From: Thalassospira lucentensis
GTDB taxonomy: Bacteria > Pseudomonadota > Alphaproteobacteria > Rhodospirillales > Thalassospiraceae
Length of the DNA stretch: 64,000 nucleotides
NCBI RefSeq assembly: GCF_011806425.1
Contig: NZ_JAATOV010000003.1
Location: forward strand, 682,001-746,000
Direction of reading: 5' to 3'
The position numbers and the translations under genes are program-made. Below the pieces are notes generated by a model. That model ran no database searches, had not been told where the DNA came from, and saw nothing but the letters and a program-made list of their open reading frames with translations. Of the stretch, positions 43,438 through 50,491 are shown piece by piece (positions within the stretch are counted from its first letter, which is position 1; each line of letters starts with the position of its first letter).

Positions 43438-43917
43438 TCAAAGCAACGGCAAGGCGTTTTTTTCGCGCAAGGTACGCACGACCAGATGCGATGAATAATT
43501 CTTGATTGCAAGATCGTCGTAGGTCTCTAGGAAATGATAGATATAGTCGGTGTAATCTGATGCATCGCGAAATTTTGCGACCATTGCAAAATCATACGCG
43601 CCCGTAATCAAATAGCACTGCATGACTTCCGGACGTGTCGCCAGAATCCGCTGCATCTTGTGGTCAACGTCACTTGTGTCCTTATCTAGCGCGACCAGAA
43701 AGACGGCAGTGACCTGAAAGCCGAGCTTTTTTTCATCAAGCTGTGCCTTCTTTGCTCTGATGAACCCTTCACTTTCCAGCTTCTTGATCCGGCGATGGCA
43801 ACTGGCCGATGACAAACCAGCGTGCTCACTGATCACATCCAGATTGGCTGTGCAGTCCTCCTGGAGTTTATCCAGAATCTTGAGATCAATCTTATCTGCT
43901 TTCAATTTTTCACCCAC
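43438..43917 (-). CDS. Lrp/AsnC family transcriptional regulator
   Basis: Regulator of 159 residues: an N-terminal winged-helix domain (KIDLKILDKLQEDCTANL, then SSASCHRRIKKLESEGFI) and a C-terminal RAM/AsnC ligand domain (PEVMQCYLITGAYDFAMV). Members respond to amino acids or their metabolites and often control a divergent neighbour. The gene is divergent from the tyrosinase-like gene at 44020 with a 102-base AT-rich gap, so that gene is the natural candidate target; this is inference. Confidence 0.9.
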   Translation of the reverse strand: MGEKLKADKIDLKILDKLQEDCTANLDVISEHAGLSSASCHRRIKKLESEGFIRAKKAQLDEKKLGFQVTAVFLVALDKDTSDVDHKMQRILATRPEVMQCYLITGAYDFAMVAKFRDASDYTDYIYHFLETYDDLAIKNYSSHLVVRTLREKNALPLL

Positions 43918-44019: not shown

Positions 44020-45369
44020 ATGGATAACACCATGATTGTCGCAAAGCCGACCTGGGACGATAATATACGTGATCTGATCAATACTCCACCGTGGGTAGCC
44101 GAGGGCCGCCGCGCTGAATTTAGTCGTCATTTGGCAAGCGCGTTTCAGACCCATTGCATTGATATGGCAAGCTACATTTCCGTGCGTAACGGCGCGGAAA
44201 AGATTTATCATTTTATGGTGTCCCAACATCTGCTGAACCCTGCAACCCCGAAAGACTTCTGGCCATTCGAAGTACAGGAGACCTTTCGACTGTGGATTAA
44301 CCAGGGATGCAGAAAAACGTCGGATTGTGAGTTTATCCGCACCCAAAACATCCAACCTCCCGAACTACCGATACAAATCTCCAAAACCCGTCTTGATATC
44401 GCATCAATGGATCAGATTGAGCTCGATCAGTATAGGGCCGAAATTGACGCCGCGATGACAGCGCCATTGCCAGATATCCAATCAATATGGCAACGGTTCG
44501 CTTCCCAACACCATAAATGGTATCCGATGGACATCCGGCAAATCCCGATGTGGTACCGGGCCTTTATGCTGCATTTCGAAACGGAAACAGGCATTTCCAT
44601 CCCCTACTGGGACTGGACGGCAGCTTGGATGTCGGATGGCAACAATCTGTGCCCTCGTGCGCCCCAAGCATTTCTTGATGAATATTACGTCCATCCCGAA
44701 ACCGGGAAAGAGCTCCGAAACCCTCTCCGTTACGCATTGCAAAATGTGTTTGGAACCGAGCGGCAAGACAAAAACGCATCTCGCAGCACTATGCTGTTCG
44801 CCCCCTTCAAGCTTTCGCCCAAAACAGTTGAAAACCGAAGTCGGAAACTTGCCGCATTACAAGGACCGCTCTCTGAATTGATCGAAGGTTCGTGCCTGAA
44901 TTCCCCCTCAGGCCAGCGAACGGACGGCCTGGCACTATTCGGACACCTGATTGCCCAAGCTGGAGAATGGGCGGGATTTCAGATGCGCCCAACTTCGCTC
45001 AGCGCACTTGACCCGCTGTTTTTATCGCTGTGCGCCAACTCAGACAGATTGCTTGAGACATGGCTGAACTCAATGCCCAACCTTAAAATTCAGTCATGCG
45101 CCCCCTTGCACCCTTTCATCGGACCGACAGCATCTCAGATGAGCGAAACCTGCCGCGCAAGCTGGCGATATACTTCGGTTGCACAGATGGCCCAAGCAAG
45201 CCGGGCACTGGATTATCAATATGGACTGCCAGAAGCGCGACCTTATCGGCCCTCTTTGAAAAATTCACCGCTTAAGATCGACAGCCACCTTATTCTGGAA
45301 AATTCACCGTCGCCGTCATCCACCGTCCCACGCGTGCTGAATGGGTTACCGCAACATCCGGTAAATTAA
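44020..45369 (+). CDS. tyrosinase-fold protein lacking copper ligands
   Basis: Protein of 449 residues whose central part follows the tyrosinase/hemocyanin type-3 copper fold. The CuA side shows IPMWYRAFMLHFE and then IPYWDW (P195-W199). The CuB side shows SALDPLFLSLCANSD (S328-D342) followed by RLLETW. Canonical tyrosinases have WHR where this has W-Y179-R, HN-x-x-H where this has L293-N-S-P-S297, and HH where this has L337-C338. All recognisable copper histidines are thus replaced while the scaffold residues remain, so normal tyrosinase activity is not expected. There is no signal peptide. The start could also be the ATG at 44032. It lies downstream of a divergent Lrp/AsnC gene and starts a run of three genes in one direction. 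Confidence 0.75.
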   Translation: MDNTMIVAKPTWDDNIRDLINTPPWVAEGRRAEFSRHLASAFQTHCIDMASYISVRNGAEKIYHFMVSQHLLNPATPKDFWPFEVQETFRLWINQGCRKTSDCEFIRTQNIQPPELPIQISKTRLDIASMDQIELDQYRAEIDAAMTAPLPDIQSIWQRFASQHHKWYPMDIRQIPMWYRAFMLHFETETGISIPYWDWTAAWMSDGNNLCPRAPQAFLDEYYVHPETGKELRNPLRYALQNVFGTERQDKNASRSTMLFAPFKLSPKTVENRSRKLAALQGPLSELIEGSCLNSPSGQRTDGLALFGHLIAQAGEWAGFQMRPTSLSALDPLFLSLCANSDRLLETWLNSMPNLKIQSCAPLHPFIGPTASQMSETCRASWRYTSVAQMAQASRALDYQYGLPEARPYRPSLKNSPLKIDSHLILENSPSPSSTVPRVLNGLPQHPVN

Positions 45370-45669
45370 GCAAATACCAGCTGCCTTACCCAACGTGTCG
45401 GCATTGGTATTTCCATCAATTTGCCCGCCCGGCTTAACGTCGAATATCGCGGTTTTCCTCGAACTTGCTGCGTTTTGCGATCCGGCTTTTACGACGTAGC
45501 GCCACTTGCACAAACTAATCCGATGGCGGCTGCTCTTGTGCAGACTGTCGCTACCGGATGCCAAATTTCGAACAAACCGAAATTACGGTACGAATGAAAA
45601 CGCAGCACAAGAACACCATGACTTCGGAGCAACTTTATCAACAACACAACTACTACAGGAATGGTAATC
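45370..45669. other. gap in the pseudo-tyrosinase cluster with an inverted repeat
   Basis: 300 bases between the tyrosinase-like gene and the next gene. It contains TGCACAA at 45507-45513 and its complement TTGTGCA at 45536-45542, a possible operator or leader hairpin. The gap is large enough to carry its own promoter. No gene is supported. Confidence 0.4.
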
Positions 45670-47403
45670 ATGTCGAACAGCTTCAAAGAATTTACCCCCC
45701 CCGCACAGCAAGCAGCAAAAGACTTCAAAAAAATCGGAATGGAGGATGACCTCGCACCATTCTGCTCAGCGTGGAATACAAATGTCACCGGCTGGACTGA
45801 AATGGCAATTATCGGCAACCCTTGGACGTCTGTGAATGACGCCCCGCGCAGTGATTATTTCAATCCGTTGCTTACTGGGTATGGGGCAGGTGTCGATGTG
45901 CCGATTGACTGGACGCCATTTCCCAACCGCCTAATACAGTTCTTCACGACACCACAAGCCGTTGCCAATCCGCAACTTGGTGGATCACCTTTAAGTACCG
46001 AACAGATTCTCGATCTTGCAGATACCGGCGAGATTGAGATTAAAGGCACCACTTACAAGCTCTATGACCCAAGCGGCACGTCAGATATCTTGAACATCCC
46101 GGCAACCCTATGCCCTGAAATTGACTGGCAGGGTAAATTCGCGCCCTTCGCGCCTTCAGGCCCGCGCGGGTGGTTGGACGAATACTGCGAATGGTCGATT
46201 GAATATGACGCGGACGGAAAGATGCGCAGCGTTATGTTCACCTGTGAAAATCCGGCGTATTTCCTCACAATGTGGCAGATCAATCCAGAAGCTGTTCTCT
46301 CACTTTATCAGCTTTACATTGATCCGGCTGTCAAACTTGAAGACCTGTATCTACGCTATACCGATGATCAGCCCAACGGCGCAAAGAAAGGCGACCCGGT
46401 CGTAGATGCGACAACAGGACGCCCCGCTTATGACACCTTGAACAAGTGGAACTACGGCACCAAACGCGTACCCGGCAAGAGTGGCGGCGCCATGCATCTT
46501 ACATCCGGTCCCAATACCCTTAGCGCCGAGATTTATCTTGCTGCGGCGGCCACCATCAATCGCGGTGCGCAGAAAAATCAACAGGAACTGATTTGCTGCG
46601 CACAATATGGCCAGCCATACCGCAACTCGGACCCGCACATTGGTAAACTTGCAAATAATGTCGCGTTGAGGACTCAGATATCCCTTACCGACCCGATCGG
46701 GCTGTATATCCAAAACCCGGTCGACTTTACAAACTGGAAAGGTCCGAACAACGAAGACATCGGTAAATACTGGAATATCACGCGCGGCCATACCAAGCAG
46801 GGTGACGAGGTAACAGATCAAATTCTTCAGGTCGTTTTCGCCATTCCCGAGGATGCTGGCTTCGCATTGAACGACTGTACGATCAATGGCAAACCACTGA
46901 CCCATGCCGGGGTAATTGCCGAAAACTTCAAGATCGCGCTTTCCGCCACCGGGAATGGTATTGCCCCCACCGAAGGCGAAAAAGGGTGCGTTAAAACCCG
47001 CGCGAACCATGTGCAACCTGCCCCTGTGCAGATGTTGCCAATTGATCTGTTTTATGGCCAGTCGCCAAGCGATCTACCCGGCTGTCTTGTCCCCGGAACA
47101 ACGCATAAATTCGCCCTTGTTGTACACGGTGCGAGCAATGACACCTCTGTTGACAATGCACGCATCCAATTCGAAAGCGACAGCATTACCGTAAACGTTG
47201 TCGAATATCTGAAAAACGGCACCCCGACACCGGGCAAAACCGACGCAGGCGATACCCAAGCCTTTATCATCGACGTTACCGTCGCCGATAACGCCGAAAG
47301 CGGCCTTGTTAAATTACGGGTCCTAAACCCATCAGAACCGAAAAATCCATCCGCCGACGACCATCCGTGGGCTGCTGGTTTGGGGGCAATAGACGCAAGC
47401 TGA
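45670..47403 (+). CDS. large protein of unknown family in the pseudo-tyrosinase cluster
   Basis: Protein of 577 residues with no signal peptide or membrane segment, so probably cytoplasmic. I do not recognise a named domain. Distinctive segments are GPRGWLDEYCEWSIEYDADG (C173 at its cysteine) and VMFTCENPAYFLTMW (C192), then NKWNYGT, GAMHLTSGPNTLSAE and PIGLYIQNPVDF. The paired EYCEW and FTCENP motifs and several conserved-looking tryptophans suggest an enzyme with a well-defined site. The C-terminal 150 residues are beta-rich. The ATG at 45670 has AGGAA upstream and is preferred over the ATG at 45661. The next gene follows after 82 bases. Confidence 0.7.
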   Translation: MSNSFKEFTPPAQQAAKDFKKIGMEDDLAPFCSAWNTNVTGWTEMAIIGNPWTSVNDAPRSDYFNPLLTGYGAGVDVPIDWTPFPNRLIQFFTTPQAVANPQLGGSPLSTEQILDLADTGEIEIKGTTYKLYDPSGTSDILNIPATLCPEIDWQGKFAPFAPSGPRGWLDEYCEWSIEYDADGKMRSVMFTCENPAYFLTMWQINPEAVLSLYQLYIDPAVKLEDLYLRYTDDQPNGAKKGDPVVDATTGRPAYDTLNKWNYGTKRVPGKSGGAMHLTSGPNTLSAEIYLAAAATINRGAQKNQQELICCAQYGQPYRNSDPHIGKLANNVALRTQISLTDPIGLYIQNPVDFTNWKGPNNEDIGKYWNITRGHTKQGDEVTDQILQVVFAIPEDAGFALNDCTINGKPLTHAGVIAENFKIALSATGNGIAPTEGEKGCVKTRANHVQPAPVQMLPIDLFYGQSPSDLPGCLVPGTTHKFALVVHGASNDTSVDNARIQFESDSITVNVVEYLKNGTPTPGKTDAGDTQAFIIDVTVADNAESGLVKLRVLNPSEPKNPSADDHPWAAGLGAIDAS

Positions 47404-47427: not shown

Positions 47428-47460
47428 GGGCGCGGCCGCGCATTTGTCGATGCCGCGCCC
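47428..47460 (+). other. intercistronic hairpin in the pseudo-tyrosinase cluster
   Basis: GGGCGCGG/CCGCGCCC inverted repeat with a 17-base loop between the 577-residue gene and the heme-protein gene. There is no T-run, so it may be an mRNA-stability or attenuation element rather than a terminator. Confidence 0.45.
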
Positions 47461-47485
47461 AAAGACCGTAATCAGGGGACAAAAC

Positions 47486-49093
47486 ATGTGTAAATTATTG
47501 AACACTCATTGGAGGCCGCCCGCAATACGCGGATTAATACTGCTTGCGATAGGCGTATTTTTTGCAGGGTTTCCCGCGCAGAACCATAGCGCAAAGGCAG
47601 CTTCGTCTTGCGAGCTGATCGTTGACCCGACGAACTCCCTTTTCCTTACCAGTGATATGTATGCACTGTTGCCGACCCAGGCCACAGTAAATTGCTATGC
47701 GTGGCAGATGTTTATAGCACTCAATTGGCCGGTCGACAGCGGATGGCCACAAACCCCCTCGAAGGCTGGCGAACCAGACCGCACGGCGAAGTTTTCCGAC
47801 TGGGGCGTACCATCCGCCCCCCAAAAGCCACTCGACATGTCAACCGTGTGGGCCAGCTTTATGAGCCCATCGAATATTTTCAAGCCCTATGCCGCAAAGC
47901 CGGACGACTGGGGTGTTCCAATGCCCAAGCCTACTGGATGCAAGGCAAGTTCCGACACTGGCATGCTGTTGGCTTCAACCCCGTTGCACGTTCTTCAAAG
48001 CACATCAAAGGATAATGATCACGATGGACATATGAAGGGAACATCGGTTGCTACTTCTGATGATACCCCTTCACTATCGATCATGGAGGCCACCGGGGGT
48101 TGGCTTACGGATCAGAATAAAAACCTGATTTTCTTTGAGCAAAAAGTTGGGAAAGCCGAATTCGACTATATCGTCGAGAATGGCCTTTTTGATGCCAAGA
48201 CCCAGCTCATGGTTGCCAAGAACGAAGTGCCCGGCAAAAGCTATCCATTCGGCCTGAACTTACCAAGCGGAAAACAATTGATCACACCGCCGGCAGCCCC
48301 CCAAGCCCAGGAAGAACTGGGATCATTCGAGCTAAAGGCCGCTTGGCGTATTTTGACCGATCATCCAGAACAATTCAGCCGCTATCTCACATCGACGGCA
48401 TGGGTTAAAGATCCGGAAACAGGTGATTGTGCCTCGGAAGTAATCGGGTTGGTTGGTCTTCATATCATTCACAAAACCCTGACCTTCCCCGATTTTATTT
48501 GGACCACGTTTGAGCAAATCGACAACGTGCCCACATCAAATGGAAATCCGCACCACCCTTATGGCTATTCCTTTTACAATAAGGACTGCAAAGGCCCGGG
48601 GGATACCTGCAAACCAAATGCCCCGCGGATTGTGTGTAGCACGCAATCGGGCAATGAAGTCTGCGAACATAAATTTGATATGGACGTCCCAGTGCAGGTT
48701 GTTCGCGAACAACCAATTGCCAGCCCGATTGCCACATTGAACCAAGATGTTCAGGATCAAATATCTCAGGCAACCAATGGAAAATCGGTCTTTCAGTACT
48801 ATCAGTTGGTCAATGTTTTGTGGGATCAGTCACCTAATCCCCCCCAATATGCGCCCGGACCAAACGCACCAACGCCGCTGTACTTCGGAAGCTTCACTTC
48901 TGAGGGTAATCTCGACGTCGCCAATACGACCATGGAAACCTATGTACAGGACCAATCTTGCGATTCGTGCCACAAATACGGCAACATCGCCGGTCACACG
49001 GAATTGGCATCGGATTTCAGCTTCCTATTCAAGGAGGCCAGCACAGCAGACATCGGTTTTCTTCAAGACACGATCAAAAACAGCACAAAGTAG
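47486..49093 (+). CDS. exported protein with single c-type heme motif
   Basis: Protein of 535 residues with a signal peptide (basic start, hydrophobic stretch at about 13-27, cleavage near AKAASS). Near the C-terminus C492-D-S-C495-H496 is a CxxCH heme-attachment motif. Other striking segments are NCYAWQMFIALNWP, LVGLHIIHKT, and DFIWTTFEQIDNVPTS, features I associate with unnamed proteobacterial exported cytochrome-like proteins. Several cysteine pairs (CKGPGDTC) suggest disulfides. The ATG at 47486 has AGGGGA 7 bases upstream; the longer frame starts inside a hairpin. It is the third gene of the cluster and converges with the di-heme peroxidase gene. Confidence 0.75.
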   Translation: MCKLLNTHWRPPAIRGLILLAIGVFFAGFPAQNHSAKAASSCELIVDPTNSLFLTSDMYALLPTQATVNCYAWQMFIALNWPVDSGWPQTPSKAGEPDRTAKFSDWGVPSAPQKPLDMSTVWASFMSPSNIFKPYAAKPDDWGVPMPKPTGCKASSDTGMLLASTPLHVLQSTSKDNDHDGHMKGTSVATSDDTPSLSIMEATGGWLTDQNKNLIFFEQKVGKAEFDYIVENGLFDAKTQLMVAKNEVPGKSYPFGLNLPSGKQLITPPAAPQAQEELGSFELKAAWRILTDHPEQFSRYLTSTAWVKDPETGDCASEVIGLVGLHIIHKTLTFPDFIWTTFEQIDNVPTSNGNPHHPYGYSFYNKDCKGPGDTCKPNAPRIVCSTQSGNEVCEHKFDMDVPVQVVREQPIASPIATLNQDVQDQISQATNGKSVFQYYQLVNVLWDQSPNPPQYAPGPNAPTPLYFGSFTSEGNLDVANTTMETYVQDQSCDSCHKYGNIAGHTELASDFSFLFKEASTADIGFLQDTIKNSTK

Positions 49094-49134: not shown

Positions 49135-50418
49135 CTATTTTTGCTCGGATAAAAGCGGCTCATAACGTTTGTCGGTCAGTGTTTTCAGGAACGCGACAAG
49201 CGCCTTGATGCGTTTTTCATCAAGCGCATCGCCCTGCTCTAGCTTATCAAGCGACAAGGTATCTGCCACTTCCGGATCGCCCCACGGATTGCCGGTTTCC
49301 GGGTTGATCTGGTTGGCTTTCGCCTTGCTGTTGTACTTGTTGTAAAATCGAATGACGGTTTCCAGATCGGAAAACACACCGTTATGCATATAGGGCCCTG
49401 TCACCGCGACATTACGCAGTGACGGGGTTTTATATTTGCCCTTGTAACTTTCGTCATCAATCGCCGGGTTATCAAGCAATCCGTTATCGGTAAAACTAAC
49501 ATCCTTGCCAAGTTCCTTGCGGGTCGCGACGTTGCGCGGTACACCGATATTGTGGAACTCGTAATTGGTGAATGTCTCGCCCTCGGCGGTTGGGCTTTCT
49601 TTAAGCATGTGACAGGTATTGCAGTTGGTAAATTGCTGCGAAAAGAACAAAACCCGACCCAGTTCCTCTGTCGGGGTCATTTTGTATTCCCCGCGCAGGT
49701 ACCGGTCATATTTGCTATCAAACGGTGCGAATTCTTTGGTTTGTTCAAACGCGGCAATCGCCTGGGTCATCGCAAGATAGGCTGCGTCATTATCGGACCA
49801 GACATCATCCCCAAACAGCGCCTTAAACCCGGCTTCGTAATCCGCATCACTTTTCAGACGCGCGATCAGGGTTGGTTTGTCCGCCATCCCCATTTCAATC
49901 GGGTTTAGCGGCGGGCCACCGGCCTGTTCGGCCAAATCGGCAGCACGTCCGTCCCAGAATTGTCCACCGACGGCAACACCGTCGGGGCGCACATGAAAGG
50001 CTGGTGAATACATCGCATAGGCCGCCATTGGCGCATTACGATCGCCAAGGCTTTTGCCATCATCACCTTGCGAAAAGGCCCCTCTGGCTACATCAAACCG
50101 CGGATCGCGAAACGCGGTCGACGGATCATGACAAGACGCGCACGATTCCGTGCGATTTGCCGAAAGACTGGTATCGAAAAACAGCGCCTCGCCCAATTCG
50201 GCCTTATCGGCAAACGGGCTATCACCGGTGTTATCGGATGCCGACGCCACTTCGCGGACCGAATGGCCATCTACCAAGTGATGCAAAAATTCCTGCTGGG
50301 AATTTGATCCCGCGGCAAGGGCAGCACCGCCCGTCCCCGCCACCGTTAACACAGCAACTGCCATGGCAGCGGGGCCTGATTTTACGAACTTAGATCGGCA
50401 AAGACGGGAAACACGCAT
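49135..50418 (-). CDS. di-heme cytochrome c peroxidase family protein
   Basis: Periplasmic protein of 427 residues of the CcpA/MauG superfamily. The signal peptide ends near AALAAGS (about residue 37). Two heme motifs are visible: C93-A-S-C96-H97 followed by DPSTAFRDPR, and C266-N-T-C269-H270. KTPSLRNVAVTGPYMHNG, with the conserved distal segment, marks the family. Such enzymes reduce peroxide with electrons from cytochromes; the MauG branch instead modifies a partner protein. ATG at 50418 is preferred because a Fur-like box covers the ATG of the longer frame. It is convergent with the heme protein at 47486. Confidence 0.88.
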   Translation of the reverse strand: MRVSRLCRSKFVKSGPAAMAVAVLTVAGTGGAALAAGSNSQQEFLHHLVDGHSVREVASASDNTGDSPFADKAELGEALFFDTSLSANRTESCASCHDPSTAFRDPRFDVARGAFSQGDDGKSLGDRNAPMAAYAMYSPAFHVRPDGVAVGGQFWDGRAADLAEQAGGPPLNPIEMGMADKPTLIARLKSDADYEAGFKALFGDDVWSDNDAAYLAMTQAIAAFEQTKEFAPFDSKYDRYLRGEYKMTPTEELGRVLFFSQQFTNCNTCHMLKESPTAEGETFTNYEFHNIGVPRNVATRKELGKDVSFTDNGLLDNPAIDDESYKGKYKTPSLRNVAVTGPYMHNGVFSDLETVIRFYNKYNSKAKANQINPETGNPWGDPEVADTLSLDKLEQGDALDEKRIKALVAFLKTLTDKRYEPLLSEQK

Positions 50419-50478
50419 GTCAGCTACTTCTGATAAAACCATCGGGAAAAGACGGGTTGTTACGCAAATGAAATCGGT

Positions 50479-50491
50479 AATGATTATCATT
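50479..50491. promoter_or_regulatory. Fur-like box AATGATTATCATT
   Basis: A perfect palindrome around TGATTATCA, matching the core of the classical Fur consensus. It lies 61-73 bases upstream of the chosen peroxidase start, a usual operator position. It implies iron-dependent control of the peroxidase gene. Confidence 0.5.

Follow-up and report, generated by a model that had tools for sequence, protein, structure and literature searches.

The uninterrupted reading frame of 449 codons at positions 44020..45369 (+) of the window (i.e. the complete 64,000-nucleotide stretch of the Thalassospira lucentensis genome that was analysed) encodes a tyrosinase-like product, P0001 (449 aa), in which most of the copper ligands of the family are replaced. 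The locus raises the question whether such a protein is an enzyme in decay or has been retained for a role that does not depend on copper.

Tyrosinase scaffold and copper ligand columns of P0001

P0001 belongs to the Pfam family Tyrosinase (PF00264) by its score of 40.8 bits (curated cut-off 22.6), and its gene was the sole PF00264 match in the window's own genome. The intact frame, the affiliation to the tyrosinase fold family and the retained scaffold motifs (IPMWYRAF, PYWDW, SALDPLF and ANSDRLLETW) had been recognized in the initial annotation and were found again; the complementary frame of the opposite strand is interrupted by many stops. The starts of the orthologues align with the fifth residue of P0001 (MIVAKPTW), and inspection by eye revealed no signal peptide. 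The N-terminal domain (residues 1-146; 44020..44457, +) corresponds to the part that is retained without tyrosinase domain in three Pseudomonas genomes. With its N-terminal domain, tyrosinase domain, neighboring genes and gene order, P0001 falls into the orthologous group of the tyrosinase that accompanies two further proteins, here termed p580 and CxxCH protein.

The six ligand columns read HHHHHH in 26/26 aligned orthologues (two of these being nearly identical sequences), whereas P0001 has H164, M170, Y179, I311, G315 and C338 at these positions. At the CuA site, the histidine of the first column is retained (H164; 44509..44511, +; aligned with the first CuA histidine in 26/26 orthologues), the second is substituted by methionine (M170; 44527..44529, +) and the third by tyrosine (Y179; 44554..44556, +), the last being the exchange of WHR to WYR that had been proposed before. 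At the CuB site, isoleucine (I311; 44950..44952, +), glycine (G315; 44962..44964, +) and cysteine (C338; 45031..45033, +) take the place of the three histidines. Five of the six copper histidines are replaced and one is present; the earlier statement that every one had been exchanged has to be restricted accordingly. The CuB HxxxH motif, formerly placed at L293/S297, was relocated to I311/G315, as the segment FGHLIAQAGEWAGFQM of P0001 pairs gaplessly with YEQPHDNYHGWLGPDM and the W, G and M residues are preserved. Likewise, the supposed replacement of an HH pair by L337-C338 applies to C338, but the family residue at the position of L337 is a tyrosine (SYHANIDR). Type-3 copper proteins have conserved CuA and CuB sites in common (PMC3658974); of the three CuA and three CuB histidines of a functional member, 1/6 is present in P0001. 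The protein very probably binds no coupled copper pair and would be devoid of tyrosinase activity, as judged from the ligand columns.

Other parts of the polypeptide deviate as well. Y168 replaces a cysteine positioned two residues before the second CuA histidine (C164 of the Thalassospira relative L010), which corresponds to the thioether motif known from fungal tyrosinases and hemocyanins. The C-terminal domain is largely absent; short stretches resembling it (DSHLI, VPRVLN and GLPQHPV) lie in a weakly aligned region and suggest that the domain was eroded in frame.

The reliability of the columns was supported at class level: PF00264 was present in 21/385 genomes, and the other tyrosinase-domain genes, from 20 genomes, read HHHHHH in 22/22 cases (32 frames, from which 3 short spurious ones and 7 second matches to the same gene were removed). 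Within the unit's own tyrosinases, 37/44 distinct sequences read HHHHHH; the seven others are P0001, Thalassospira profundimaris S25-3-2 (L009), three proteins consisting of the N-terminal domain only, and two pieces of a fragmented Pseudomonas gene (L134). Members from plasmids of Sinorhizobium sojae and Paracoccus denitrificans PD1222 also read HHHHHH (2/2). Scans of genome contigs and viral contigs with the P0001 pattern revealed no second copy of the window form, and a tblastn search of plasmids yielded five records: the two members just named, with HHHHHH, and three additional entries from Paracoccus denitrificans of equal identity. As to whether the substitutions are conserved across homologues, no second sequence carrying them was found, and the other lineages lost the site differently.

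Gene neighborhood and distribution of the p580/CxxCH unit

The conserved order of the unit is AsnC regulator, tyrosinase, p580 and CxxCH protein. In the window, an Lrp/AsnC-type regulator (43438..43917, -; Pfam HTH_24 and AsnC_trans_reg) is divergent from the tyrosinase-like gene, which is followed by the conserved partners p580 (580 aa; 45661..47403, +; without a match in NCBIfam or, up to E = 1, in Pfam) and CxxCH protein (549 aa; 47444..49093, +), a putative c-type cytochrome whose single CxxCH motif lies close to the C-terminus and whose N-terminus looks hydrophobic on visual inspection. Neither p580 nor the CxxCH protein had significant relatives among solved structures; p580 contains invariant Cys, His and Trp motifs (PxGPRGWLDEYCE). 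A promoter and terminator scan gave no excess over shuffled sequence. The CxxCH gene is adjoined by a convergent gene for a MauG/MbnH-like di-haem peroxidase (49135-50490, -), a homologue of which was not found in the 19-kb loci of three Thalassospira relatives; at L010 and L011, the intact Thalassospira loci, the gene after that of the CxxCH protein encodes a product of 284 aa that lacks a Pfam match (L010 4441-5292, -).

Within the genus, a longer homologue of P0001 was present in 3/28 other genomes searched, with identical gene order and neighbors, and p580 in 4/29 genomes including that of the window, namely the four with the tyrosinase gene. At the Pseudomonas loci with six histidines, the tyrosinase stop and the p580 start share a 4-nt overlap, whereas 291 bases lie between the two genes in the window. 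An AsnC-type homologue accompanied 55/60 loci with the tyrosinase or its N-terminal domain (the loci being partly non-independent); it occurs at most six-histidine loci and was not found in five Halomonas, Modicisalibacter, Methylococcaceae and Nostoc loci.

The pair of p580 and CxxCH protein, which has no Pfam family, is conserved beyond the tyrosinase and extends from Proteobacteria to Nostoc, Bacteroidota and a Kuenenia MAG. Searching with the alignment of p580 revealed 58 loci, mostly from Proteobacteria but also from Nostoc, Kordia, Hymenobacter and the Kuenenia MAG, of which 28 contained the tyrosinase or N-terminal domain and 30 did not. Two pairs of records are the same assembly from two collections (L009 and L012; L011 and L037) and do not confirm each other. 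Among 398 Pseudomonas genomes, 30 encoded p580, and all strong matches to the N-terminal domain (E up to 3e-34; 29 genomes) were found within these 30: 26 had full-length genes, two the N-terminal domain only (L015 and L107) and one a frameshifted cluster (L134), while the thirtieth (G513) contained a divergent p580 and the CxxCH protein only. Weak matches (E 9e-10 to 2e-6) in six Pseudomonas genomes without p580 represent a sister tyrosinase family, five members of which (L170-L174) comprise approximately 525-544 aa, the sixth (L169) being shortened by a deletion. In the latter (L169 3094-3918, -; genome G782), the tyrosinase domain is missing and the N-terminal domain runs into an apparent neighboring membrane-protein gene; a frame resembling a multicopper oxidase, as judged by eye, is positioned upstream of the sister-family tyrosinase at L170 and L174.

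In three loci (L038, L043 and L069), the p580/CxxCH pair is located near LodA- and LodB-like genes, which recalls the operons of LodA-type quinoproteins that also carry tyrosinase and multicopper oxidase genes, as described in PMC4417212. L069 additionally has a ferritin-like (PF12902) gene near the pair. Judged by the six window proteins scanned, none of which matched a LodA model, the locus of P0001 does not conform to a LodA/LodB operon, and p580 was rejected as a LodA homologue in a profile comparison (probability 0.2%).

Divergence, frame protection and repeated loss of the copper site

Among six-histidine lineages the tyrosinase is better conserved than its partner proteins: L010 and L016 share 73.8% identity in the tyrosinase part, 64.8% in p580 and 54.5% in the CxxCH protein. 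The corresponding values between the window and L010 are 33.1%, 63.3% and 53.5%. On a fixed topology, the window branch had a length of 5.18 for the tyrosinase part (near saturation), 2.06 for the N-terminal domain, 0.41 for p580 and 0.71 for the CxxCH protein, i.e. approximately 12 times (tyrosinase part) and 5 times (N-terminal domain) the p580 value. Despite this divergence the frame is free of stops. When the gene of a relative was mutated at random to 85% identity, a mean of 3.3 stops arose and 4.5% of 200 runs remained stop-free; at 80% identity and lower, stops were present in 200/200 runs at each level. Since simulated drift nearly always leaves stops, the frame was protected during most of the divergence, and plain neutral drift of the P0001 gene is excluded. 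Its GC content by codon position matches that of the neighboring genes. As the window form is represented by one sequence and its synonymous sites are saturated relative to the other members, the last part of the branch may have been a phase of recent relaxation.

The initial annotation had read the pattern as ligands lost selectively and not through random decay. The counts do not support this as a statistical claim: 1/6 ligands was retained versus 49/103 other invariant positions of the tyrosinase domain (one-sided Fisher p = 0.15), and invariant positions within four residues of a ligand (9/26 retained) did not differ significantly from those elsewhere (40/77; p = 0.17). Among comparable invariant positions, 22/40 were retained in the N-terminal domain and 50/109 in the tyrosinase part. 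Broken down by residue type, Trp (10/11), Pro (11/15) and Arg (8/12) were mostly preserved; the values for His, Cys and Asp were 1/7, 0/3 and 2/10. The losses cluster along the chain (39 runs versus 55 expected, P = 0.0012). The overall pattern agrees with an active site taken apart within a retained scaffold, but also with relaxation of the whole gene.

P0001 is not the only member of its family without a complete copper site. In L009 the ligand columns read H, S, H, gap, gap, H; approximately 43 residues were lost in frame, removing the CuB HxxxH motif without a remnant in the DNA, and a histidine sits one residue past the second CuA column. Three Pseudomonas proteins (L029, L015 and L107; 161, 135 and 164 aa) located at the position of the tyrosinase gene comprise the N-terminal domain only, each ending in an unrelated-looking tail; in L015, the stop of the gene meets the start of p580. 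Pairwise comparison of their N-terminal domains resulted in dN of 0.38-0.39 and dS of 1.35-1.37; the ratio of approximately 0.28 points to selection on the copper-free part of the protein in these strains, in which the dN/dS of p580 is 0.14-0.19. In the Pseudomonas genome G800 (L134 2467-7683), both tyrosinase and p580 are broken into multiple frames, which shows that the unit can also decay outright. No additional tyrosinase gene was detected in the five genomes that encode copper-less forms: G000 and G023 contain no further PF00264 match and G441, G442 and G591 none at all (the control genomes G009 and G025 have one intact copy each), and an intact paralogue that might pair with P0001 was accordingly dismissed.

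A tree of p580 and CxxCH protein (16 rows; the window forms a long branch of unsure placement) requires a minimum of three changes. A single clade of all copper-less forms was rejected (p-AU 0.0002), as was a grouping of the window with the N-terminal-domain-only forms (p-AU 0.0145), whereas a grouping of the window with L009 was not rejected (p-AU 0.335). The copper site was lost at least twice independently within the unit.

Possible role of the copper-less protein

The persistence of the unit with lost ligands, a retained frame and no other tyrosinase gene suggests that part of the protein needs no copper. The classification as a pseudoenzyme put forward earlier agrees with the absence of five of six ligands, the lack of a further PF00264 match in the genome and a divergence beyond unselected drift. 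On balance, P0001 is probably a copper-less pseudo-tyrosinase retained as a non-catalytic partner beside the p580/cytochrome pair. According to this proposal, the ancestor would have been a six-histidine tyrosinase in a unit of AsnC regulator, tyrosinase, p580 and CxxCH protein; in the lineage of the window, the copper site would have been dismantled and the C-terminal domain eroded, while the protein was kept, e.g. to help p580 and the putative electron-transferring cytochrome to fold, assemble or dock. The tyrosinase scaffold together with the N-terminal domain would mediate such a role. This proposal is supported by the 4-nt overlap with p580 in six-histidine Pseudomonas and by the co-occurrence of N-terminal domain and p580. 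Against it stand the fast evolution of the N-terminal domain of the window itself, whose proportion of retained invariant positions is little above that of the tyrosinase part, the 291 bases that separate the tyrosinase-like gene from p580, and the fact that either component is found alone: the N-terminal domain without p580 in the six sister-family genomes, and p580 with CxxCH protein without the N-terminal domain in 30/58 loci. A function as translation leader for p580 could explain the retained frame of L015, but not the purifying selection on the N-terminal domain.

The main rival to a partner role is a late stage of decay under weak constraint, in which the enzyme had become dispensable; the frame would have survived either because complete relaxation set in recently or because translating it serves only to bring ribosomes to p580. 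The long branches of the tyrosinase part and N-terminal domain relative to p580, a ligand loss that does not exceed that at other invariant sites, the loss of most of the C-terminal domain and the frameshifted L134 cluster as precedent in the family would be in line with such a process; since the 449 codons are free of stops where simulated drift rarely or never left them so, the codon-position GC matches that of the neighbors and Trp, Pro and Arg are largely preserved, we regard it as rather unlikely. It is considerably less probable that a new mononuclear soft-metal or redox site replaced the dinuclear copper site. His, Met, Tyr and Cys are residue kinds able to bind copper or iron, and H164, M170, Y179 and C338 fill four of the six former ligand columns, but the remaining two are occupied by Ile and Gly, and this set of residues was found in no second sequence. 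If a new site existed, a tyrosinase-fold protein would be the partner of a c-type cytochrome in a new chemistry. An artefact, i.e. ligands that are present but misaligned or mis-sequenced, is most improbable: residues 240-300 (approximately) are poorly aligned and the genome is a single assembly, but WYRAF and SLCANSDR provide unambiguous anchors, H309 is the sole histidine between residues 226 and 363, tblastn detected neither a ligand segment nor the C-terminal domain in another frame above noise, and the six ligands of the family align onto those of the 22 ordinary tyrosinase-domain genes.

Compared with the six-histidine tyrosinases of the unit from Thalassospira, Pseudomonas, Halomonas and Paracoccus denitrificans PD1222 (PDEN_RS23115, annotated as 'tyrosinase family protein'), P0001 shares the fold family, the N-terminal domain and the neighboring p580 and CxxCH genes (31-35% identity over 443-448 aligned residues to four of these relatives); unlike P0001, they have the complete set of copper histidines and an entire C-terminal domain. 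Copper-less relatives of hemocyanin are known from arthropods, i.e. hexamerins, pseudo-hemocyanins and CleHcBI2 of the millipede Cleidogona; the last has copper histidines changed to Y, N and L, evolves approximately 4.5-fold faster and is still produced, as reported in PMC6034248. Like CleHcBI2 in that account, P0001 is a faster-evolving member of the type-3 copper proteins that has lost copper histidines; however, the former has lost 3/6 ligands and belongs to a class of animal storage or haemolymph proteins, whereas the latter has lost 5/6 and is a bacterial, operon-borne PF00264 member. A literature search, with most subscription journals outside its reach, found no copper-less case from bacteria or from the tyrosinase family.

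The wider unit is a more useful result than the single gene: In one of its branches, the p580/CxxCH pair is tied to a tyrosinase that kept an N-terminal domain through two or more losses of the catalytic part, which raises the question what copper-independent service the tyrosinase may provide to the p580/CxxCH pair.
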